Source: Ancylobacter novellus DSM 506 | GTDB taxonomy: Bacteria; Pseudomonadota; Alphaproteobacteria; Rhizobiales; Xanthobacteraceae | Direction: 5' to 3' | Length of the DNA stretch: 64,000 bases | Assembly (NCBI RefSeq): GCF_000092925.1 | Contig: NC_014217.1 | Coordinates: 1,736,001-1,800,000 of the forward strand | Part shown: positions 45,607 to 57,661 of the stretch, one piece after another | Numbering within the stretch: the first letter of the stretch is position 1 | Layout: each line of letters begins with the position of its first letter | The notes under the pieces: model-generated | Seen by the model: only the letters and a program-made list of their open reading frames with translations | Told to the model about the DNA's origin: nothing | The model's database searches: none | Program-made: the position numbers and the translations under genes

Positions 45607-47196
45607 CTAGAATCCCATCGCACAGCCATCGCTGCGCGGATCGCCGGCGCCTTCCAGCCGGCCGTCGCCATGACGCGCAATGGCGCCGGCGTGCCCCATC
45701 ATCGCGTCGAAGGGCGGCACGATTTCCACATCGTGTCCGGCTGCCCGCAACGCGGCGACGAGGTCCGGCGGGAAGCGGTCCTCGAGCTTGAGCGTGACGG
45801 TCTCGGCGCCCCAGGTGCGGCCGAGCAGCCAGCGCGGGGCGGTGATCGCCGCCTGCAGTTCCTGGCCGAACAGCCCGTACCGTGAGAACAAGGCCGCCTG
45901 CGTCTGCGGCTGGCCCTCTCCGCCCATGGTGCCATAGACCATGTGCCGGCCATCCGCGAAGCTCGCCATGGCCGGATTGAGCGTATGGAACGGCTTGCGG
46001 CCCGGAGCCAGCACGCGCGGGCCGTCGCCGGCGAGCTCGAAGCTCGATCCCCGGTTCTGCCAGACGATGCCGGTCTGCGGCAGCACGACACCGGAGCCGA
46101 ACTCGAAATAGATGCTCTGGATGAAGCTCGCCGCCAGCCCGTTGCCGTCGATGGCGCCGAGCCAGACCGTGTCGCCCGCCGAAGGCGGGGCCGGCCAGGG
46201 CAGGGCCAGCGCGGGATCGATTCGGGCGGCGAGGCGGTCGAGCACCTCCGCGGTCAGGAAGTCGCGCGGGTCCTCGCGCATGGCATCCGCATCGCCGACC
46301 ACGCGGTCGCGCACCAGGAACGCCTGCTTGGTCGCCTCGATGAGCCCGTGCAGATGCTCGAAGCCCTCCGCTTGCACGACACCCAGGCGGCTGAACAAAG
46401 CGAGGATCATCAACGACGCCAGCCCCTGCGTCGGCGGCGGGAAGTTGAAGAGCCGCACGCCGGGAAGATCAACATGGAGCGGGGTGACGCGCGTGGCGCG
46501 GCAGGCGGCAAGATCGCCCGCCGTCACCGGCGTGCCGGCGGCGGCGAGATCATGGGCGATCTCGCGCGCCAGCGGTCCGCGGTAGAAGCTCTCCGTGCCT
46601 TCCCGCCCGATCCGCTCGAGCGTGTCGCCCAGCGCGGGCAGCGCCATCGTCGACCCAGTCGCCGGCGCCGCGCCATTCACGAGGAAAGCGTCGGCGAAGC
46701 CGGAGATGTCGGCGAGTTCCGGCAGCTTCTGGGCGGTGAGGTCGTTCTGGCTGGCGGTGACGGCAAAGCCGTTGCGGGCATGCCAGACCGCATCCTCGAG
46801 CAGCCGCGACAATGGCAGCCGTCCACCGCGCTCGGTGCTGAGCGCCAGCGCCTCGCCCCAACCGGCGACCGTGCCGGCCGTGGTGTTGGCCGCCAGCCCC
46901 CCCCGGCGGGGAATGGCGTCCAGTCCCGCCCGCGCATAGAGTTCGGGCGTAGCGGCCGCCGCGGCGCGGCTGCAGGCGTCGATGCCGACGGGCATTTCGC
47001 CCGGCGCGCCGACGAGCCAGAAGCCGTCGCCGCCGATCGCCGTCATGTGCGGGTACACCACCGCCAGCGCAGCGGCCATGGCGACGGTAGCCTCCACGGC
47101 ATTGCCGCCCTCGCGCAGCACGCGCAGCCCCGCCTCGCTCGCCAGATGATGCGGCGAGGTCACCATGCCCCGGCGGGCACGAACCGTGTTCAGCAT
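45607..47196 (-). CDS. gamma-glutamyltransferase-family Ntn-hydrolase
   Basis: 529 residues from the ATG at 47196. Family features: GMVTSPHHLASEAGLRVLREGG at the start, the GGDGFWLVG block, and GDTVWLGAIDGNG, where the Thr after GD fits the self-cleavage nucleophile of the group. FADGRHMVYGTMGGEGQPQ is typical near the end. No clear signal peptide, unlike the E. coli enzyme. It follows dctM with 13 bases between, so it belongs to the TRAP operon and may act on the imported compound or a glutamyl amide. True substrate unknown. Confidence 0.88.
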   Translation of the reverse strand: MLNTVRARRGMVTSPHHLASEAGLRVLREGGNAVEATVAMAAALAVVYPHMTAIGGDGFWLVGAPGEMPVGIDACSRAAAAATPELYARAGLDAIPRRGGLAANTTAGTVAGWGEALALSTERGGRLPLSRLLEDAVWHARNGFAVTASQNDLTAQKLPELADISGFADAFLVNGAAPATGSTMALPALGDTLERIGREGTESFYRGPLAREIAHDLAAAGTPVTAGDLAACRATRVTPLHVDLPGVRLFNFPPPTQGLASLMILALFSRLGVVQAEGFEHLHGLIEATKQAFLVRDRVVGDADAMREDPRDFLTAEVLDRLAARIDPALALPWPAPPSAGDTVWLGAIDGNGLAASFIQSIYFEFGSGVVLPQTGIVWQNRGSSFELAGDGPRVLAPGRKPFHTLNPAMASFADGRHMVYGTMGGEGQPQTQAALFSRYGLFGQELQAAITAPRWLLGRTWGAETVTLKLEDRFPPDLVAALRAAGHDVEIVPPFDAMMGHAGAIARHGDGRLEGAGDPRSDGCAMGF

Positions 47197-47209: not shown

Positions 47210-48535
47210 CTACCAGCCGATGGCCTTGGGAAGCCAGGTCGCCACCTCGGGGAAGGCGAACACGAAAGCGACAGCAATCAGTTGCAGCGCGATGAAGGGA
47301 ATGACGCCCCGATAGATGTCGGCGGTTTTCACCTCCGGCGGCGCGACGCCGCGCAGATAGAACAGCGCCCAGCCGAAAGGCGGCGTGAGGAAGGAGGTCT
47401 GCAGCACCGTGGCGATCAGCGCCGCTGCCCACACCAGGTCGACCCCGGCGTTCTGCATCAGCGGCAGGAACATCGGCACCACGATGTAGCTGATCTCGAT
47501 CCACTCGATGAAGAAGCCGAGCACGAAGATGATCAGCAGCATGAAGATGAGGATGCCGTCCGTGCCACCCGGCACCAGCGCAAAGGCGTCATGCACCAGC
47601 CGCTCGCCGCCGAGCCCGCGGAAGGCCAGCGCGAAGACCTGCGAGCAGATCAGCACGAAGAACATCATCGCCGTGATGCGGGCCGTCGACTGCACCGTGT
47701 CGACCAGCGTCTTCAGGGTGAAGCGGCCGGCGACCGCCGCAACGAGGATGGAGCCAAGCGCGCCCATGCTGGCGGCCTCGGTGGGCGCGGCGATGCCGCC
47801 GATGATGGAGCCGAGCACGGCGAGAACCAGCCCGATGGGCGGCAGGCCGACCTTGAGCGCCTTGAGCCACAACTCCTTGCGCGGCATGGCGCGGCGCTCT
47901 TCCAGCGGAATAGCGGGGACCTTCTCCGGCCAGATGATGCCGACGAGGATCATGTAGATGCAGAAGATGCCGGTCAGCAGCAGTCCGGGCATCAGCGCGG
48001 CGGCGAACAGCGTGCCGACGGACTCGCCGAGGATGTCGGCCAGCAGGATGAGGATGGTGCTGGGCGGGATGAGCTGCCCGAGCGTGCCGGAGGCGCAGAT
48101 CGCTCCGCAGGACAGGCTCTTGTCGTAGCCTCGCCGCAGCAGCGTCGGCAGGGTGAGAAGGCCGAGCGTGACGATGGTGGCGCCGACGATGCCGGTGGTC
48201 GCTCCCATCATCATCCCCACCAGGATGATGCCAAGCCCCATGCCGCCGCGCAGGCCGCCGGACAGATGGCCGATCACTTCCATCAGTTCGTCGGCGAGGC
48301 GCGACTTCTCCAGCATCACGCCCATGAAGACGAAGAGCGGGATGGCGATCAGCGTGTAATTGGCGGTGACGCCGTAGATGCGCGCCGGAAGCAAGCCGAA
48401 CAGCGTCGTGCCGAAGCCAAGCCAGCCAAAGAAGAAGCCGCTGATCGCCAGGGTGAGCGCGACCGGCACGCCGACGAACAGCATGACGAAGAAGGAGGCG
48501 ATACAGGCGATCGCCAGAATTTCATTGAGGGGCAT
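47210..48535 (-). CDS. dctM: TRAP transporter large permease (DctM family)
   Basis: 441 residues, about twelve membrane spans. Family motifs are clear: VTANYTLIAIPLFVFMGVML, GAICASGTLGQLIPPSTIL and FLTPPFGWALFYLRG. Start ATG (MPLNEIL) overlaps the dctQ stop region by 14 bases; the frame is open a little further upstream, inside dctQ. Forms the ion-coupled channel of the TRAP importer. Confidence 0.94.
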   Translation of the reverse strand: MPLNEILAIACIASFFVMLFVGVPVALTLAISGFFFGWLGFGTTLFGLLPARIYGVTANYTLIAIPLFVFMGVMLEKSRLADELMEVIGHLSGGLRGGMGLGIILVGMMMGATTGIVGATIVTLGLLTLPTLLRRGYDKSLSCGAICASGTLGQLIPPSTILILLADILGESVGTLFAAALMPGLLLTGIFCIYMILVGIIWPEKVPAIPLEERRAMPRKELWLKALKVGLPPIGLVLAVLGSIIGGIAAPTEAASMGALGSILVAAVAGRFTLKTLVDTVQSTARITAMMFFVLICSQVFALAFRGLGGERLVHDAFALVPGGTDGILIFMLLIIFVLGFFIEWIEISYIVVPMFLPLMQNAGVDLVWAAALIATVLQTSFLTPPFGWALFYLRGVAPPEVKTADIYRGVIPFIALQLIAVAFVFAFPEVATWLPKAIGW

Positions 48536-49070
48536 CGAGGGGCACTCGGGCGGGGGGCTCGGCCGCGCCGCCAAGGAAAGGAATGAGCGCGCGCAGCGTC
48601 GCCGCGAGGCTCTGCAGCAGCAGCAGCGCGAAGCCGGCCGGAATCAACGCCTTGAGGATGAAGCGGTAGGGCAGGCCGCCCGGGTCGGGCGAACCTTCGC
48701 TGATGCGATAGGACTGCATCACATAGGGCCAGGACAGCAGGATCACGATGATCGACAACGCCACCACGCTGACGGCGGAGAACAGGTCGATCGACTGCTG
48801 CATGCGCTTCGGCAGATGTGCGTAGAGTATGTCTACCCGTACATGGCCTTCATGCTTGATGGTGTAGGCGATGCACAGCAGGGTGAGCGGAGACATCAGG
48901 TGCCATTCGAGCTCCTGCATCGCCACCGAGCCGGTATTGAAGGCGTAGCGCATCAGTACGTTGCCCGCCATGACGAGGACGAGCGCGAGACCCGTCCACG
49001 CCGCGACCCAGCCGCAGGCCTCGACGATCGCGTCGAGGCCGCGGGCACATCTTTCGAGAACTGAGGTCAT
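48522..49070 (-). CDS. dctQ: TRAP transporter small permease (DctQ family)
   Basis: 182 residues, four membrane spans. ALVLVMAGNVLMRYAFNTGS and the QELEWHLMSPLTLLCIAY block with HEGHVRVDI are typical of DctQ. The ATG overlaps the dctP stop (ATGA). The reading frame stays open upstream across dctP, but that part is not protein-like. Works with DctM to import the ligand caught by DctP. Confidence 0.93.
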   Translation of the reverse strand: MTSVLERCARGLDAIVEACGWVAAWTGLALVLVMAGNVLMRYAFNTGSVAMQELEWHLMSPLTLLCIAYTIKHEGHVRVDILYAHLPKRMQQSIDLFSAVSVVALSIIVILLSWPYVMQSYRISEGSPDPGGLPYRFILKALIPAGFALLLLQSLAATLRALIPFLGGAAEPPARVPLDAPQ

Positions 49071-50161
49071 GCGCCCCTGCGGATCTGGGTCTGGTACACG
49101 GCCTCCGATAGGCCCGCCCACTGGCTGTGCTCGGCCGCGAACTTCGTGAAGGACTCGTAGACCTTCTTGATCTTGGGGTCGGAGTCCGCGAGTTGCTGCA
49201 GCGTCGTCGCGGTAACCTCGCGCAGCTTGTCGACCACCGCCGCGGGATAGGGCCCGGCGACGACGCCCTGGTTCTTGACAAGGTCGGTCATCGCCTCGCC
49301 ATTGGTCGCCTCGCACCAGGTATGGCTGAGCACGTTGCAGGCCATGGCGGCGGCGCGCACGATCTCCTTGAGGTCGTCCGGCAGGCTCTCCCAGGCGGTC
49401 TTGTTGATGACCAGCTCGGTGACGTTGTTCGGCTCGTGCCAGCCGGTCGTGTAGTAGTATTTGGCCGCCTTCTGCAGGCCCAGGCGGCGATCCTGATAGG
49501 GGCCGACGAACTCGGCGGCGTCGATCACGCCGCGTTCCAGCGCCGGGAAAATCTCGCCGCCGGGCAGCAGCTTCACGTCGACGCCGAGCTGCGCATAGAC
49601 CTTTCCGGCGAGGCCGGGGATGCGCATCTTCAGGCCCTTGAAGTCCTCGACCTTCTCGATCGGCTTGCGGAACCAGCCGGACATCTGCACGCCGGTATTG
49701 CCGAGCGGCATGGGCACCAGGTTGAAGGGCTCGTAGAGCTCTTCCCAGAGCTTGAGGCCGCCACCGTGATAGATCCAGGCGTTCTGGCCCTGGAAGTTCA
49801 AGCCGAAGGGCACGCAGGTGAAGAACTGCGCGGCCGGCACCTTGCCGGCCCAGAAATAGGAGTTTGCGGCGTTCATCTCGACCGTGCCGGAGGACACCGC
49901 GTCGAAGCCTTCCAGCGCCGGGATCAGCTCGCCGGCGGCGAAGTGCTGGATCTTGAGGCGACCGCCGGACATCTTGTCGACCAGCTCGCAGAAATAGGTC
50001 GGGCTGCCCGGACCGGCGACGTAGAACGGCGCACCCGGCCCATAGGCATTGGTCATCTTCCAGCTGAAGCTCTGCTGGGCGCGCGCGACATGCGGCGCGG
50101 CGACGGTGGCGACGGCGGCGGTTCCCGCCAGACCGGCGCCCAGGAATCCACGGCGATCCAT
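49067..50161 (-). CDS. dctP: TRAP transporter substrate-binding protein (DctP family)
   Basis: 364 residues. Twin-arginine type start MDRRGFLGAGLAG with a hydrophobic stretch and ARAQ cleavage near 30, so export by Tat is likely. The ligand-binding core has KGLKMRIPGLAGKVYAQLGV, whose Arg is the usual carboxylate anchor in DctP proteins, and GVIDAAEFVGPYQDRRLG. Looks nearest to 2-oxo-acid or amino-acid-like TRAP binders. It is divergent from the AraC-amidase gene. Confidence 0.93.
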   Translation of the reverse strand: MDRRGFLGAGLAGTAAVATVAAPHVARAQQSFSWKMTNAYGPGAPFYVAGPGSPTYFCELVDKMSGGRLKIQHFAAGELIPALEGFDAVSSGTVEMNAANSYFWAGKVPAAQFFTCVPFGLNFQGQNAWIYHGGGLKLWEELYEPFNLVPMPLGNTGVQMSGWFRKPIEKVEDFKGLKMRIPGLAGKVYAQLGVDVKLLPGGEIFPALERGVIDAAEFVGPYQDRRLGLQKAAKYYYTTGWHEPNNVTELVINKTAWESLPDDLKEIVRAAAMACNVLSHTWCEATNGEAMTDLVKNQGVVAGPYPAAVVDKLREVTATTLQQLADSDPKIKKVYESFTKFAAEHSQWAGLSEAVYQTQIRRGA

Positions 50162-50334
50162 TGCTGTTCCCCTTGTCCGAATGGCGCCACGCGCGACGCC
50201 GCTCTCTGCATGGGGCTACTAAGCCGGTGCAGCGCGGCCTGGGCAATGCCCCAAAAAGGGCAAGTCGATATCGGTAGGGGTACGGAGATAGAGGCCAATC
50301 TCAGAAAATATGATTTATTTACAGCTATTTATGT

Positions 50335-52791
50335 ATGAATGGCGAGGATTTGTGCACATCCCGACCGAGACGGCGCGACAAGTTTTTGTGCGCCGTTCGT
50401 CAAAGTGCTTCACTGGCGGCCGAGCCCCTGCCGCGCGATGACATGGCCGCCATGAATCGAGCCGTCCCCATTTCCATCAATGCCTTTCCCGCCAGCAAGC
50501 AGGAGGCGGCGTGGCGCGAGACGCTGGCCTCCCTCGGGCTCGCCGCGCAGCTCGCGAGCGCGGGCACCTTCCACTTCGGCGAGGTCTCCATCAAGCGTTC
50601 GCCGACGCAGGCGACCTTCGCCCTGCTGCGCTCCAGCGCGCAGAACCTCGCCGCCCTGCCGAAGAGCGAGCCGCAGGTCCTCGTCGGCTTCGTCACCTAT
50701 GGCCGCGGTCACCTCACCGATTCCGGGCGGCGAGCGGCCGAGTTCGCCGATGGCGACGTCTGGGTGTGCGATCCGGCGACCCCTTTCTCGGTGCAGTTCC
50801 GCAACGATTTCGAGCTCCTGCTGCTGCGCCTTCCACGCGAGCGGCTGGTGGGGCGGCTCGGTCGCGCCGCCACCGTGCCGACGCTGGTGGTGGGAGAGAC
50901 CGTCTCAGCGGCTGCCGCTCGCCCGCTGATGCGGGCTCTGGCGGCGCATTTCGCCGAGATGGAGGACGGCGACGTGATGGCCGCCGAGCCGGCGATCACC
51001 GAGCTGGTGCTCTCCGCGCTCCTCGCCGAGGCCCGCCCGGAAGAGGACAACGCCACGCAGGTCCAGGCAGCGCACTTCGCCCGTGTCTGCGCGCAGATCG
51101 AGGCGCGGCTGCGCGAGCCGGAACTCTCGGTCGGCGACGTCGCCGGCGCTGAGGGACTGTCGGCCCGCTACATCCAGCGCCTGTTCGAGGGGCAGGATCG
51201 CTCCTTCTCCGACTATGTACGCCACCGCCGGCTGGAGCGTTGCCGGCTCGACCTCGTCAATCCCCAGCACGCCGACCGCTCCATCGCCGAAATCGGCTTT
51301 CGCTGGGGCTTCGCCGACCAGGCGCATTTCAGCCGCGTATTCAGCGCCGCCTACGGCATCTCGCCGCGCGACTATCGCAAGTCCTCCGGCGCCACCGTCG
51401 AAACACGCTGGACCCGCGGCCGCCCCATGCATTCGGGCTCGCGGCCCGTGCGTCCAGGTCCCGCGCCGGCATTGGTGCCGGCTTCGGAGAGCGGCGGCCT
51501 GCCCGCTCCGGTGCCGCGGGAGGTGGGGGAGCCCGGCCACCATCATCTGCCGGTGTCGCGCGACACCGTGCATTGGGGCTATCTCTCCCGCACCATTCCG
51601 CCGGTGCTTCGCGTGCGCTCCGGTGCCCGCGTCACCGTCGAGACCCTGACCCAGCACGCCTATGACGATCATGAGCGCATGATCGCGGGCGATCCCGGCG
51701 CGGAGAGCGTGTTCCGCTGGACGGGCGACTACAAGGCCGTGGACCGGCGCGGGGCTGGCCCGGTCAACGCCTCCATCTTCGGGCGCGGCGCGGGGGAGGG
51801 CTTCGGCGTCCACATCTGCACGGGGCCGATCTTCGTTCACGGCGCCGAGCCGGGCGATGTGCTGGAGGTCGAGATCCTCGCTCTCAAGCCGCGCCCCAGC
51901 GCCAACCCGGCCCATGCCGGCTCTGCCTTCGGCTCCAACGCGGCGGCGGCCTGGGGCTTCCACCACGACGACATTCTCGACGAGCCGCACAAGCGCGAGG
52001 TCATCACCGTCTACCGCACCGACGCCGCCGGCGAGAGCGGCTATGCGGAAGCGGTCTACTCCTTCCGCTGGGCGCCGCAGACCGACCCGTTCGGCGTCGT
52101 CCACGAAACCATCGACTATCCCGGCGTTCCCGTCGACCACGCGCGGATCGAGAAACGCGAAGCGGTGCTCGCCGGCGCGCGCATCCCCGTGCGCCCGCAT
52201 TTCGGCTTCATCGCCGTGGCGCCACGCGAGACGGACATCGTGGATTCGGTGCCACCGGGCTATTTCGGCGGCAACATCGACAATTGGCGCGCCGGCAAGG
52301 GCGCCTCGGTCTATCTGCCCGTCGCCGTTCCGGGAGCGCTGCTCTCCGTCGGCGACCCGCATCTGGCGCAGGGTGACGGGGAGATCAGCGGCACGGCGCT
52401 GGAATGCTCGCTCACGGGCGAGATCCGGCTTGTCCTGCACAAGCGCGGCGAAACTGACAAGAGCTTCCTCAACGGCCTCGGGGCGCCGCTCATCGAGACG
52501 CCGGATGCCTGGCTGCTGCACGGTTTCAGCTACACCAACTATTTGCGCGAACTCGGCCGCAACGCGCAGTCCGAGGTGTTCAAGCGCTCCTCGCTCAGCA
52601 AGGCTCTGCGCAGCGCGTTTCGCGCCACGCGCAAGTTCCTGATGGAGCGCTACGGGCTCGACGAGGACGAAGCCATCTCGCTGATATCGGTGGCGGTGGA
52701 TTTCGGCGTCACGCAGGTGGCGGACGGCAATTGGGGCGTCCACGCCCGGATCGACAAGGCGATATTCGCGGCACGGCAGCAGGGCCGGTAG
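50335..52791 (+). CDS. AraC-type regulator fused to acetamidase/formamidase (single 818-residue protein)
   Basis: One unbroken frame holds two normally separate proteins. Residues about 45-235 form an AraC-binding-like sensor domain; 247-350 are an AraC HTH pair (LSARYIQRLFEGQDRSFSDY; IGFRWGFADQAHFSRVFSAA). A Pro-rich linker (351-400) leads into a full acetamidase/formamidase at 401-815: SRDTVHWGYLSRTIPPVL, GVHICTGPIFVHGAEPGD, PHFGFIAVAP and VDFGVTQVADG. The enzyme opens amides to acid and ammonia; here it may also sense them. Linker codons show no internal ribosome site, so two products are unlikely. The start is unsure: ATG at 50335 has no good ribosome site; ATGs at 50443 and 50452 are alternatives. 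Confidence 0.88.
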   Translation: MNGEDLCTSRPRRRDKFLCAVRQSASLAAEPLPRDDMAAMNRAVPISINAFPASKQEAAWRETLASLGLAAQLASAGTFHFGEVSIKRSPTQATFALLRSSAQNLAALPKSEPQVLVGFVTYGRGHLTDSGRRAAEFADGDVWVCDPATPFSVQFRNDFELLLLRLPRERLVGRLGRAATVPTLVVGETVSAAAARPLMRALAAHFAEMEDGDVMAAEPAITELVLSALLAEARPEEDNATQVQAAHFARVCAQIEARLREPELSVGDVAGAEGLSARYIQRLFEGQDRSFSDYVRHRRLERCRLDLVNPQHADRSIAEIGFRWGFADQAHFSRVFSAAYGISPRDYRKSSGATVETRWTRGRPMHSGSRPVRPGPAPALVPASESGGLPAPVPREVGEPGHHHLPVSRDTVHWGYLSRTIPPVLRVRSGARVTVETLTQHAYDDHERMIAGDPGAESVFRWTGDYKAVDRRGAGPVNASIFGRGAGEGFGVHICTGPIFVHGAEPGDVLEVEILALKPRPSANPAHAGSAFGSNAAAAWGFHHDDILDEPHKREVITVYRTDAAGESGYAEAVYSFRWAPQTDPFGVVHETIDYPGVPVDHARIEKREAVLAGARIPVRPHFGFIAVAPRETDIVDSVPPGYFGGNIDNWRAGKGASVYLPVAVPGALLSVGDPHLAQGDGEISGTALECSLTGEIRLVLHKRGETDKSFLNGLGAPLIETPDAWLLHGFSYTNYLRELGRNAQSEVFKRSSLSKALRSAFRATRKFLMERYGLDEDEAISLISVAVDFGVTQVADGNWGVHARIDKAIFAARQQGR

Positions 52792-53877: not shown

Positions 53878-54864
53878 ATGAGCCTTCGCCTTCTCAAGGC
53901 GGCCGCGGCCGCTCTCACCCTTTGCGCCTTCGCGCCCGCCATGGCTCCCGGCCCCGCCGCCGCGCAGAGCTTCGATCGCCCGGTGCGCATCGTGGTGCCC
54001 TTCGCGCCCGGCGGCACGTCCGACATTCTCGCCCGCCTCATCGCGCCGAAGCTCTCCGAGGCCGTCGGCCAGCCGGTGGTCGTCGAGAACAAGCCCGGCG
54101 CCGCCGGCAATATCGGCGCCGACGCGGTCGCCAAGGCCCGCCCGGACGGGCACACGCTGCTGCTGATGGATATCGGCTCGCTCGCCATCGCGCCCAGCCT
54201 GTTCTCCGACCTCTCCTATAATGTCGAGACCGACCTCGCCCCGGTCGGCATGGTCATGTTCGGCCCCTATGTGCTGGCGGTGAACCCCTCGGTGCCGGCC
54301 AAGAACGTGTCCGAGCTCGTTGCCTACGCCAAGGCCAATCCGGGCAAGCTGGCAGTCGCGAACTCCGGCGTCGGCGCGCTCAACCACATCACCGCCGTGG
54401 CGCTGGCGCGCGATCTCGGCATCGACTGGAAGAACGTCCCGTATAAGGGCGGCTCGGCCGCCTCGCGCGCCGTCGTCTCCGGCGAGAGCACCGTGATCAT
54501 CAACGGCGCGACCGCGACGCTGCCCTTCGTCACCAACGGCCAGTTGGTCGGCATCGCCGTCACCGGCGACGAGCGGCTGAAAGCGCTGCCGAACGTCGAG
54601 ACGTTCAAGGAGGCGAAGCTGCCGCTGGACGACGCGGGCACCTGGCAGGGCCTGCTCACCAGCGGCAAGACGCCTCCGGAGGTCGTCGCCAAGCTGAATG
54701 CGGAACTGAACAAGATCCTCGCCATGCCGGAGATCCAGTCCAAGATCGCCGAGCAGGGCGGCTCGGTGCGCCCCGGCACGCCGGACGCGGTGAAGACCTG
54801 GCTCACCACCAACATCAAGAGCTGGGGCGACATCGTGCGCGCAGCCGACATCAAGACCAACTGA
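53878..54864 (+). CDS. tctC: tripartite tricarboxylate transporter binding protein TctC, copy 1
   Basis: 328 residues. Signal peptide 1-29. TctC/BugT landmarks: RIVVPFAPGGTSDILARLI, VVENKPGAAGNIGADAVAKA with the conserved Gly-Asn, and a C-terminal GTPDAVKTWLTTNIKSW. GGAGG is eight bases before the ATG. Binds a carboxylic acid in the periplasm and hands it to the TctA-TctB membrane pair. Starts the tctCBA-aldolase operon. Confidence 0.93.
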   Translation: MSLRLLKAAAAALTLCAFAPAMAPGPAAAQSFDRPVRIVVPFAPGGTSDILARLIAPKLSEAVGQPVVVENKPGAAGNIGADAVAKARPDGHTLLLMDIGSLAIAPSLFSDLSYNVETDLAPVGMVMFGPYVLAVNPSVPAKNVSELVAYAKANPGKLAVANSGVGALNHITAVALARDLGIDWKNVPYKGGSAASRAVVSGESTVIINGATATLPFVTNGQLVGIAVTGDERLKALPNVETFKEAKLPLDDAGTWQGLLTSGKTPPEVVAKLNAELNKILAMPEIQSKIAEQGGSVRPGTPDAVKTWLTTNIKSWGDIVRAADIKTN

Positions 54865-54870
54865 CCGCCG

Positions 54871-55329
54871 GTGCGCATCGTGACCCGCCGTCGCTTCGGC
54901 TGGCCGGACCTGCTGTTCGGCGGTTTCCTGATCGTGGTGGCGGCGGGCACTCTCGTCGCCACTCGTAACCTCGTCGGCGGCACGGCCGCCGACATGGGGC
55001 CCGGCTACATGCCGCGGGCCATCGCGCTGATGCTGCTCGCCTTCGGCGTCTTCTTCGCTGTCCGTGGTGTGCTGCGCGGTCCCGTCGGCATCGAGACGGT
55101 GCAGTTGCGGCCGATCCTCGGGGTCGGCGCCGCGGTGGGGGTCTTCGCCCTGCTGATCGAGAGCGGTGGCCTGGCGCTCGCCTCCTTCGCCGCCATCCTC
55201 ATCGCCGCCGTGGCCAGCCGCGAGAGCCGCTTCTTCGAGGTGATCCTCTTCGGGCTCGGCGTCACCGCCGCAGCGGTGCTGCTCTTCGTCAAGGCACTGG
55301 CGCTGCCCGTGTCCATCTGGCCCTGGTGA
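54871..55329 (+). CDS. tctB: tripartite tricarboxylate transporter small subunit TctB, copy 1
   Basis: 152 residues with four membrane spans. GTG start six bases after the tctC stop. ADMGPGYMPRAIALMLLAFGV is the TctB family core. Small membrane partner of TctA. The short gaps to tctC and tctA point to one transcript. Confidence 0.88.
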   Translation: MRIVTRRRFGWPDLLFGGFLIVVAAGTLVATRNLVGGTAADMGPGYMPRAIALMLLAFGVFFAVRGVLRGPVGIETVQLRPILGVGAAVGVFALLIESGGLALASFAAILIAAVASRESRFFEVILFGLGVTAAAVLLFVKALALPVSIWPW

Positions 55330-55345
55330 GCATCGCAGGCGCGCC

Positions 55346-56845
55346 ATGGAACTCTTCGACAATCTTCTCCTCGGCCTTTCGACGGCCCTGCAGCTGAACA
55401 ACCTGATCTACTGCCTGATCGGCGTGGTCATCGGCACGGCGATCGGCGTGCTGCCGGGCATCGGGCCGATCCCGACCGTGGCGCTGCTGCTGCCCTTCAC
55501 CTTCGGGCTCGCGCCGGCCTCGGCGCTGATCATGCTCGCCGGCATCTTCTACGGCGCGCAGTATGGCGGCTCGACCACGGCCATCCTGGTCAACGTGCCC
55601 GGCGAGACCTCCTCGGTCGTCACCTGCCTCGACGGGCACGAAATGGCCAAGCGCGGCCGCGCCGGCCCGGCGCTCGCCATCGCGGCGATCTCCTCCTTCT
55701 TCGCGGGCACGGTCGCCACGGTGGTGATCGCGGTGCTCAGCCTGCCGCTGGCGGCGCTGGCGCTGAAATTCACCGCGGTCGAATATTTCAGCCTGCTGGT
55801 GCTCGGCCTGTTCGCCGCCGTCATCCTCGCCCACGGTTCGGTGGCGAAGTCGCTCGCCATGGTCTTCCTCGGGCTGCTGATCGGCACGGTCGGCATCGAC
55901 GTGAATTCCGGCGTCGCCCGGATGACCTTCGGCATTCCGGCGCTGTCGGACGGGCTGGATTTCGTGCCCGTCGCCATGGGCATGTTCGGCCTCGCCGAGA
56001 TCATCGCCAATCTCGAACGACCGGCGGTCCGGCAGGTGGTGAGCCAGAAGCTGCGCGACCTCATTCCCTCACGCGCCGACCTCCGGGCGGCCTTCCCGGC
56101 CATGCTCCGCGGCACCGTCATCGGCTCGGCTCTCGGCGTGCTGCCGGGCGGCGGTGCGGCGCTGCCGCCCTTCACCGCCTATGCGCTGGAGAAGAAGGTC
56201 GCCAAGGACCCCTCGCGCTTCGGCAAGGGCGCCATCGAGGGCGTCGCCGGGCCGGAGGCGGCCAACAATGCCGGCGCGCAGACCAGCTTCATTCCGCTGC
56301 TCACGCTCGGCATTCCCGCCAACGCCCTGATGGCGCTGATGATCGGCGCGCTGATGATGCAGGGCATCCAGCCCGGCCCGCAGGTGATGACCGAGCAGCC
56401 CGAGCTGGTCTGGGGTGTCATCGCCTCCATGTGGACCGGCAACCTGATGCTGCTCGTCATCAACCTGCCGCTGGTGGGCCTGTGGGTGTCGATGCTGAAG
56501 ATTCCCTACCGGCTGCTCTTCCCCGCCATCGTGCTGTTCTGCTGCATCGGCACCTACGGCATCTCCAACAGCGCCTTTAATGTCTGGCTGATGCTGGGCT
56601 GCGCCGTGGTCGGCTACTTCTTCATCAAGGTCGGCGTCGAGCCGGCGCCGCTGCTGCTTGGGCTCGTGCTCGGGCCGCAGTTGGAGGAGAACTTCCGCCG
56701 CGCCATGCAGCTCTCCGACGGCGACCCGTCGGTGTTCGTCACTCGGCCGATCAGCGCGCTGCTGCTCCTCGTCGTCGCGGTCATGCTGCTCGCCATGCTC
56801 TCGCCCGCCGTGCTGAAGACCCGCGAGCGGGCCCTGGCCGAATAG
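55346..56845 (+). CDS. tctA: tripartite tricarboxylate transporter large subunit TctA, copy 1
   Basis: 499 residues, about ten to twelve membrane spans. Signatures: GVLPGIGPIPTVALLLPFTF near the start and its mirror GVLPGGGAALPPFTAYALEK in the middle, plus YGAQYGGSTTAILVNVPGE. Large, ion-coupled subunit. A second, diverged TctA lies at 61512-63020, facing the other way. Confidence 0.95.
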   Translation: MELFDNLLLGLSTALQLNNLIYCLIGVVIGTAIGVLPGIGPIPTVALLLPFTFGLAPASALIMLAGIFYGAQYGGSTTAILVNVPGETSSVVTCLDGHEMAKRGRAGPALAIAAISSFFAGTVATVVIAVLSLPLAALALKFTAVEYFSLLVLGLFAAVILAHGSVAKSLAMVFLGLLIGTVGIDVNSGVARMTFGIPALSDGLDFVPVAMGMFGLAEIIANLERPAVRQVVSQKLRDLIPSRADLRAAFPAMLRGTVIGSALGVLPGGGAALPPFTAYALEKKVAKDPSRFGKGAIEGVAGPEAANNAGAQTSFIPLLTLGIPANALMALMIGALMMQGIQPGPQVMTEQPELVWGVIASMWTGNLMLLVINLPLVGLWVSMLKIPYRLLFPAIVLFCCIGTYGISNSAFNVWLMLGCAVVGYFFIKVGVEPAPLLLGLVLGPQLEENFRRAMQLSDGDPSVFVTRPISALLLLVVAVMLLAMLSPAVLKTRERALAE

Positions 56846-56896
56846 CGACGCCCGCCTCCCACCCTGTCGTCACTGCCCATTACAAGGACCCTGCCC

Positions 56897-57661
56897 GTGG
56901 ACCTGCCCGTTAACAGCTTCAAGCGCGCCCTGGTGGCCGGCCGTCAGCAGATCGGCTTCTGGAACAGCATGACGAGCCCGACCGCCACCGAGATCCTCGC
57001 CGGCTCCGGCTTCGACTGGCTGATCATCGACGGCGAGCACGCGCCGAACGACGTTCCGGGCGTGCTGTCGCAGATCCACGCCATGATGGAGAACACGACG
57101 CACCCGATCGTGCGCATCCCCGTCAACGACCCCATCGTCTTCAAGCGCTTCCTCGACATCGGCACGCAGACCTTCCTCGTGCCGATGGTCGAGACCGTCG
57201 AGCAGGCGCAGGCGGCGGTGGCGGCGACGCGCTTTCCCCCGCACGGCATACGCGGCTTTGCCGGCGCCGCGCGCGCCTCGCGCTATGGCCGCGTGGCGAA
57301 CTACCATTCCCGCGCGCACGAGGAGCTCTGCATCCTCGTGCAGATCGAGACCCAGCAGGCGCTCGACAACATCGAGGCGATCGCCGCGGTGGAGGGCATA
57401 GACGGGCTCTTCGTCGGGCCGGGCGACCTCTCTTCCGACCTCGGCTATCTCGGCGACCAGGGCAATCCCTACATCGTCGAGCTGATCGAGCGGACGCTGC
57501 ACCGCATCGTCGCCACCGGCAAGCCGGCGGGCATCCTCACCGGCGACGAGGCGCTGGCGCGCCGCTACATGGCGGCCGGCAGCACCTTCACCGCCGTGGG
57601 CATCGACACCGGCACGCTGGCACGCAGCACCGAGGCGATCGCGAAGAAGTTCAAGGCCTGA
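56897..57661 (+). CDS. HpcH/HpaI-family aldolase
   Basis: 254 residues. Class II aldolase of the HpaI/GarL group: GFWNSMTSPTATEILAGSGFDWLIIDGEHAPND, with the Glu/Asp metal region, PMVETVEQAQAAVAATR, and VQIETQQALDNIEAIAAV. Cleaves 4-hydroxy-2-oxo acids to pyruvate plus an aldehyde. GTG start with AAGGA eight bases upstream. Last gene of the tctCBA operon; it probably handles a compound brought in by the transporter. Confidence 0.9.
   Translation: MDLPVNSFKRALVAGRQQIGFWNSMTSPTATEILAGSGFDWLIIDGEHAPNDVPGVLSQIHAMMENTTHPIVRIPVNDPIVFKRFLDIGTQTFLVPMVETVEQAQAAVAATRFPPHGIRGFAGAARASRYGRVANYHSRAHEELCILVQIETQQALDNIEAIAAVEGIDGLFVGPGDLSSDLGYLGDQGNPYIVELIERTLHRIVATGKPAGILTGDEALARRYMAAGSTFTAVGIDTGTLARSTEAIAKKFKA

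Follow-up and report, generated by a model that had tools for sequence, protein, structure and literature searches.

In regulators of the GabR/MocR type, an aminotransferase-like domain serves as the effector sensor next to a GntR-type HTH, and the targets are of related chemistry. Ada joins an AraC-type HTH to a methyltransferase and senses DNA damage by irreversible self-alkylation, and PutA is a trigger enzyme, acting both as an enzyme and as a gene regulator. Enzymes of the acetamidase/formamidase family (PF03069, FmdA_AmdA) are represented by stand-alone structures such as 3b9t, 5ubu, 3tkk, 2ii1 and 2f4l, and by the gamma-lactamase 2wkn. We here describe a gene of Ancylobacter novellus DSM 506 in which an enzyme of this family is fused to the C-terminus of an AraC-type regulator. 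The gene lies in a 64,000-nucleotide stretch of contig NC_014217.1 (positions 1,736,001 to 1,800,000), referred to as the window, and coordinates without a locus name refer to it.

The fusion has an HTH_18 domain and an AraC-type N-terminal domain in common with AraC/XylS activators, of which FeaR and CuxR are the nearest named; candidate operators, possibly direct repeats, lie before its putative target genes. It differs from these activators in the complete enzyme that comes after its DNA-binding part. The proposed likeness to GabR/MocR is that an enzyme-fold domain would act as effector sensor and genes of related chemistry would be regulated, but the fusion has an AraC HTH and an FmdA_AmdA domain (Pfam) instead of a GntR HTH and an aminotransferase fold. 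With Ada it shares the combination of an AraC-type HTH and an enzyme in one activating chain, whereas its signal is likely a small amide and not DNA damage. Its anatomy is also compatible with the double role of trigger enzymes such as PutA. No description of the AraC-amidase layout was found among the open-access papers listed, in agreement with the earlier note, which knew of no described function for it, and the term "AraC" is absent from the accessible text of a 2024 formamidase review (PMC10781810). Homologues do carry the database name "acetamidase/formamidase/AraC-like DNA-binding protein", and annotators had thus seen the layout.

Domain layout and family of the fusion

Homologues were collected at E <= 0.001, which gave 2271 among 8000 candidates scored. 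The earlier note had proposed a search for PF12833 and PF03069 in one chain, and both are carried by all of the best 120 of these homologues. Unfused AraC relatives (88, among the matches listed) are at most 39% identical over the full length. Family counts refer to 80 fusions, i.e. the window fusion, a second fusion from the same genome (locus L011) and those of 78 of 80 fetched loci; L067 and L081 were excluded because the simple gene caller gave no intact fusion, and the N-terminal end of L084 is cut off by a contig edge. Counts over 78 loci exclude the window and L011. Loci were assigned by hand to groups I-IV from neighbourhood and organism, with III comprising the rest; type I is the clade of the window fusion.

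The open reading frame described in the earlier note spans 50335-52791, but its start at 50335 was rejected and the likely start is the ATG at 50452, giving a gene at 50452..52791 on the forward strand that encodes 779 aa. The initial 117 nt of the longer frame are probably non-coding, since an in-frame stop lies 12-15 nt upstream of the M40-aligned codon in 5 of 17 type-I sequences and a near-invariant DNA block of the type-I alignment falls within these 117 nt; in the remaining 12 sequences the frame upstream of this codon is open for at least 117 nt. Further features, all on the forward strand and in the numbering of the 818-aa frame, are the AraC_binding_2 N-terminal domain (PF14525; 50614..51021, residues 94-229), the HTH_18 DNA-binding domain (51142..51381, residues 270-349), the linker motif R361-G362-R363-P364 (51415..51426) and the acetamidase/formamidase-family domain (51547..52788, residues 405-818). 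The protein thus combines an AraC HTH (PF12833/PF00165) with an AraC-type N-domain, as AraC/XylS members do; its best NCBIfam model is FeaR, with 134.5 bits under a cut-off of 199. The PF03069 match scores 93.8 bits against a cut-off of 27, and the amidase domain is complete, with the conserved GGNxD and GDxHxxxGDxE motifs.

That AraC and amidase parts form one real chain, as claimed earlier, is borne out by the linker, which reads through without stop or frameshift in 80/80 fusions. Within the linker, R361, G362 and P364 are invariant in all 80 despite the variability around them, and 56 have RGRP. Among 89 unfused AraC sequences, RGxP occurs anywhere in six and in the tail after the HTH in one (P0156). 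It is hardly credible that the layout is an artefact, or that two proteins arise through an internal start. An in-frame ATG within or just after the linker is present in 29/80 sequences, and 14/80 have an ATG or GTG accompanied by a Shine-Dalgarno-like stretch. The position of these possible starts is not conserved, however, and those in the window all lack such a stretch; a separately made amidase was rejected.

RGRP is the core of the AT-hook, and the window linker matches it. An AT-rich tract was seen at about 50299-50339, with ~70% AT where the loci have 33%; it lies 40-80 nt upstream of the candidate operator described below. Such a tract near the candidate site is a feature of type I only, being weak in II and absent in III and IV, and an AT-hook function of RGxP is not supported family-wide.

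The amidase domains of the 80 fusions form a single clade (FastTree, 135 sequences, support 0.989), with 18 Tat-type stand-alone enzymes as sister (support 0.962); one of five "classical" sequences was excluded because of a wrong frame. An interim IQ-TREE topology, which is without support values, agrees. The amidase was accordingly fused to the AraC C-terminus by one origin in this sample. The distribution of the fusion is patchy: among 142 genomes sampled from the class two had a match at E <= 1e-150, and among 25 own-genus genomes examined 15 had an orthologue (at least 79% identity). The 16 type-I loci include a Rhizobium, another member of the Rhizobiaceae and two MAGs of the order, and fusions of different groups are ~45-60% identical. 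At L089:13646-15706 the next gene after a stand-alone amidase is an unfused AraC gene that lacks RGxP, which may represent the order before fusion.

Neighbouring genes in the window and in other loci

Divergent from the fusion lie the genes of a TRAP transporter and an acylase, all on the reverse strand: dctP for the solute-binding protein (49067..50161), dctQ for the small membrane subunit (48522..49070, start read from the translation), dctM for the large membrane subunit (47210..48574) and a GGT-family acylase (PF01019; 45607..47196, start chosen at 47196 although the frame runs to 47277). The earlier note had seen this operon as the likely target. All four genes adjoin the fusion in 16/16 type-I loci with 69-98% identity. 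The LysR and TctC genes on the other side of the window fusion were found within the flanks of 0/16 type-I loci.

DctP is TakP/keto-acid-receptor-like, its best PDB matches being 7ug8 (ketoacid-binding, 282.5 bits) and 2hzk (TakP, 264.4 bits). Among GGT-family structures the acylase is closest to the chains of 5hft (293.3 and 262.4 bits), followed by 2nlz (242.8 bits). We take 5hft to be HpxW, an oxamate amidohydrolase; oxamate is an analogue of pyruvate. Given these matches of DctP and the acylase, oxamate, oxamide or a similar 2-oxo-acid amide is plausible as signal or substrate, although we put this forward only tentatively. Beside DctP and the acylase, the amidase could release oxamate from oxamide. 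In TakP, the cation ligands are the side chains of Gln156, Glu214 and Glu240 and the main chain of Trp215 (PMC1839085); in the 2hzk alignment the window DctP keeps counterparts of the three side-chain ligands and has Phe at the Trp215 position. HpxW-like acylase genes also occur near the fusions of a Thiomonas (L066:13713-15296, 57%) and a Proteobacteria MAG (L079:22-999, 52%).

The earlier note had also advised looking at the neighbours of other fusions, and amidase genes proved frequent there, with candidate operators before amidases and transporters. The fusion has a stand-alone PF03069 gene no more than 7 kb away in 51/78 loci, and no more than 700 bp away in 34 of these; all 51 are loci of the other groups (51/62, vs 0/16 in type I). 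The stand-alone amidases counted are one sequence cluster with a few weak or partial members (L059, L071, L090). The second fusion of the same genome (L011:9073-11409) follows an SBP-type ABC transporter and a stand-alone amidase. It also lies beside TctCBA and HpcH genes (L011:691-11409), as does the window fusion (53878-57661).

In type II, 18/18 stand-alone amidases (e.g. L024:6139-7779) start with MC-x-GDD-x2-CP, followed in 17/18 by ERR[SGN]FL, a Tat-like signal, while a stricter twin-arginine pattern flagged none of them. The Tat-like start suggests that the free enzyme is probably exported, whereas the fusion must be cytosolic.

Loci of Novosphingobium, Parvibaculum and Asticcacaulis type contain varying sets of genes for a Rieske oxygenase, a LigB-type dioxygenase, a RutA-like monooxygenase, a RutB/biuret-hydrolase-like enzyme, a ribokinase and an amidohydrolase. 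This catabolic cluster, with fusion-type operators, was seen in part of L049-L091, and further members in varying sets are TRZ/ATZ amidohydrolase, TauD-like, SDR and MFS genes. Breakdown of riboflavin or lumichrome by the Novosphingobium-type clusters was considered and is not supported. In the accessible text of its description, that pathway has a Rieske and an extradiol dioxygenase, which the clusters share, plus a P450 and a xanthine oxidase (PMC12746152). The luciferase-like protein of the clusters is nearer to RutA than to riboflavin lyase (222.7 vs 73.6 bits).

A candidate operator shared among the fusions

Alignment of the 17 type-I sequences revealed a near-invariant intergenic block, in the window AAGTTTTTGTGCGCCGTTCGTCAA. 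It led to a new 26-bp candidate operator of the form CAAG-N3-TTGTGCGC-N7-CAAG, which in the window reads CAAGTTTTTGTGCGCCGTTCGTCAAA (50379..50404, forward strand) and ends 47 nt before the ATG at 50452; across the 17 sequences this distance is 44-61 nt. With 14 or more of the 16 fixed positions matched, 1.39 Mb of loci contain the pattern at 71 places and the reversed sequence at 1; with exactly 13 matched, the counts are 67 and 13. The candidate sites have a self-similarity peak at 22 bp (0.453 vs ~0.25), which stems partly from selecting CAAG twice.

For a leave-one-group-out test, a matrix was trained on three neighbourhood groups and applied to the fourth, and a site was counted if its top score exceeded the best reversed-control score of the group. 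This gave a site in 61/80 loci (I 16/16, II 16/19, III 13/22, IV 16/23), with none above the reversed control in the other 19. Of the 61 top sites, 53 face a gene or operon of one of four kinds: the fusion itself in 31 cases (15 in I, 15 in II, 1 in III), the SBP-ABC transporter operon in nine, a stand-alone amidase in three and catabolic genes (TauD-like, RutA-like monooxygenase, Rieske, LigB dioxygenase, ribokinase) in ten. Two of the remaining sites face an unclustered gene and six no assigned gene.

A scan of 30 own-genus genomes gave exactly one type-I site in each of 20 and none in the reversed control. An acylase orthologue (at least 81% identity) is present in exactly these 20, whereas the other ten have acylase homologues at only 54-57%; some GGT homologue at E <= 1e-160 is found in 30/30. 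The 15 genomes with a fusion orthologue are exactly those of the 25 that have the type-I site.

The site might instead belong to another regulator, with the fusion controlling a different target. Co-occurrence is not binding, the same genomes hold further AraC-type matches, and in genomes of the class the general pattern comes close to background and is a weak genome-wide marker: with at most one mismatch, 13 of 142 genomes had a match against 9 control hits, and the fusion genome G085 was missed. In the own genome, up to three mismatches gave 19 matches vs 26 in the control, and only the window site has fewer than three. However, the site travels with the fusion across groups with fusions of only ~45-60% identity, and in the own genus it occurs once per genome and only where the fusion was found. 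We therefore regard another regulator as very unlikely.

The single good site of the window is on the fusion side of the intergenic region, facing the fusion gene, ~217 nt from the dctP start. No good second operator facing dctP was found, and a search of 50100-50520 for sigma-70 promoters gave none. In the window clade the fusion would first activate itself, and the divergent TRAP-acylase operon may be a further target. Most Ancylobacter loci have another conserved block, GGCAATGCC with its neighbours (50241-50265), in the stretch that separates the operator from dctP; it could be part of the dctP promoter or a site of another regulator.

The amidase domain as a proposed signal input

The relatives of the window fusion have the same design, a shared candidate site and amide-handling neighbours, which suggests that an enzyme was recruited as a sensor; in many of them the fused PF03069 domain is the same enzyme type as the neighbour genes. 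We therefore favour, with moderate confidence, the reading that the fusion is a one-component AraC activator whose C-terminal amidase is the signal input and probably still hydrolyses its ligand. A dimer of the fusion would bind the putative 22-bp direct repeat near the -35 region, an amide occupying the amidase site would switch it to activation, and hydrolysis of the amide would lower the signal. In type I, where there is no stand-alone amidase in the surrounding 7 kb and the candidate site is directed at the fusion's own gene, the fusion may also be the working enzyme.

Conservation along the chain bears on which domain senses. Identity to the window protein has a median of 64% in the amidase and 56% in the HTH, against 26% in the AraC N-domain and 21% in the linker; the median dN/dS of 15 of the 17 type-I sequences is 0.131, 0.12, 0.215 and 0.381 for these four parts, respectively. 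The folded N-domain, which is CuxR/AraC-like, might itself be the sensor, a point against an amidase sensor. The amidase would then be tethered merely for co-production, as would suit a long and variable linker that is disordered in the structure model (residues 313-354 of 779) and a window-clade site that faces the fusion gene itself. Yet the N-domain is the least conserved folded part, and the 51 of 62 loci outside the window clade that have a stand-alone amidase are already supplied with the enzyme, and we consider this co-production reading improbable.

Alternatively, the amidase domain may bind the amide but have lost hydrolysis, as in a GabR/MocR-like sensor. Compared with the stand-alone PF03069 enzymes, the fused amidase is a cytosolic part of a regulator and has two specific replacements: L661, where 29/29 of the closest stand-alone enzymes have Y, and F644 in place of T or H. 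At 18 type-II loci it changes faster than the stand-alone enzyme of the same locus (0.67 vs 0.77 in median pairwise identity, higher for the fusion in 1/153 pairs), and such a pace would fit a sensor better than a full-time enzyme; at 11 loci with cytosolic stand-alone enzymes the two are about equal (0.84 vs 0.842, fusion higher in 10/55 pairs). The stand-alone enzymes near the fusion could do the chemistry. On the other hand, the earlier note's description of a complete amidase holds for the active-site-like residues as well: the GGNxD and GDxHxxxGDxE positions are kept and 22 D/E/H residues are invariant in 80/80 fusions. The domain is also strongly constrained in the window clade, where no stand-alone enzyme is near. 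A sensor without hydrolysis is thus rather unlikely, though it deserves some weight.

Within the favoured reading of the amidase as signal input, we hold a more specific version possible without expecting it: an activator that reads its own occupied and still working active site, induces itself and amide-uptake genes through the CAAG-TTGTGCGC-CAAG operator, and turns itself off by consuming the signal, with the invariant RGxP linker relaying the state of the active site to the DNA-binding part. If true, this self-limiting sensor-enzyme would be an undescribed class of AraC regulator that uses an enzyme as receptor. An amidase sensor would provide the AraC family with a receptor of enzyme type whose operator and regulon can be read, and the question of whether the enzyme is the sensor would become testable. 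The system also ties PF03069 enzymes without an assigned substrate to genes of transport and degradation in several proteobacterial groups, points to a route of amide scavenging through a TRAP receptor of keto-acid type and an acylase like HpxW, and offers a starting point for an amide biosensor.
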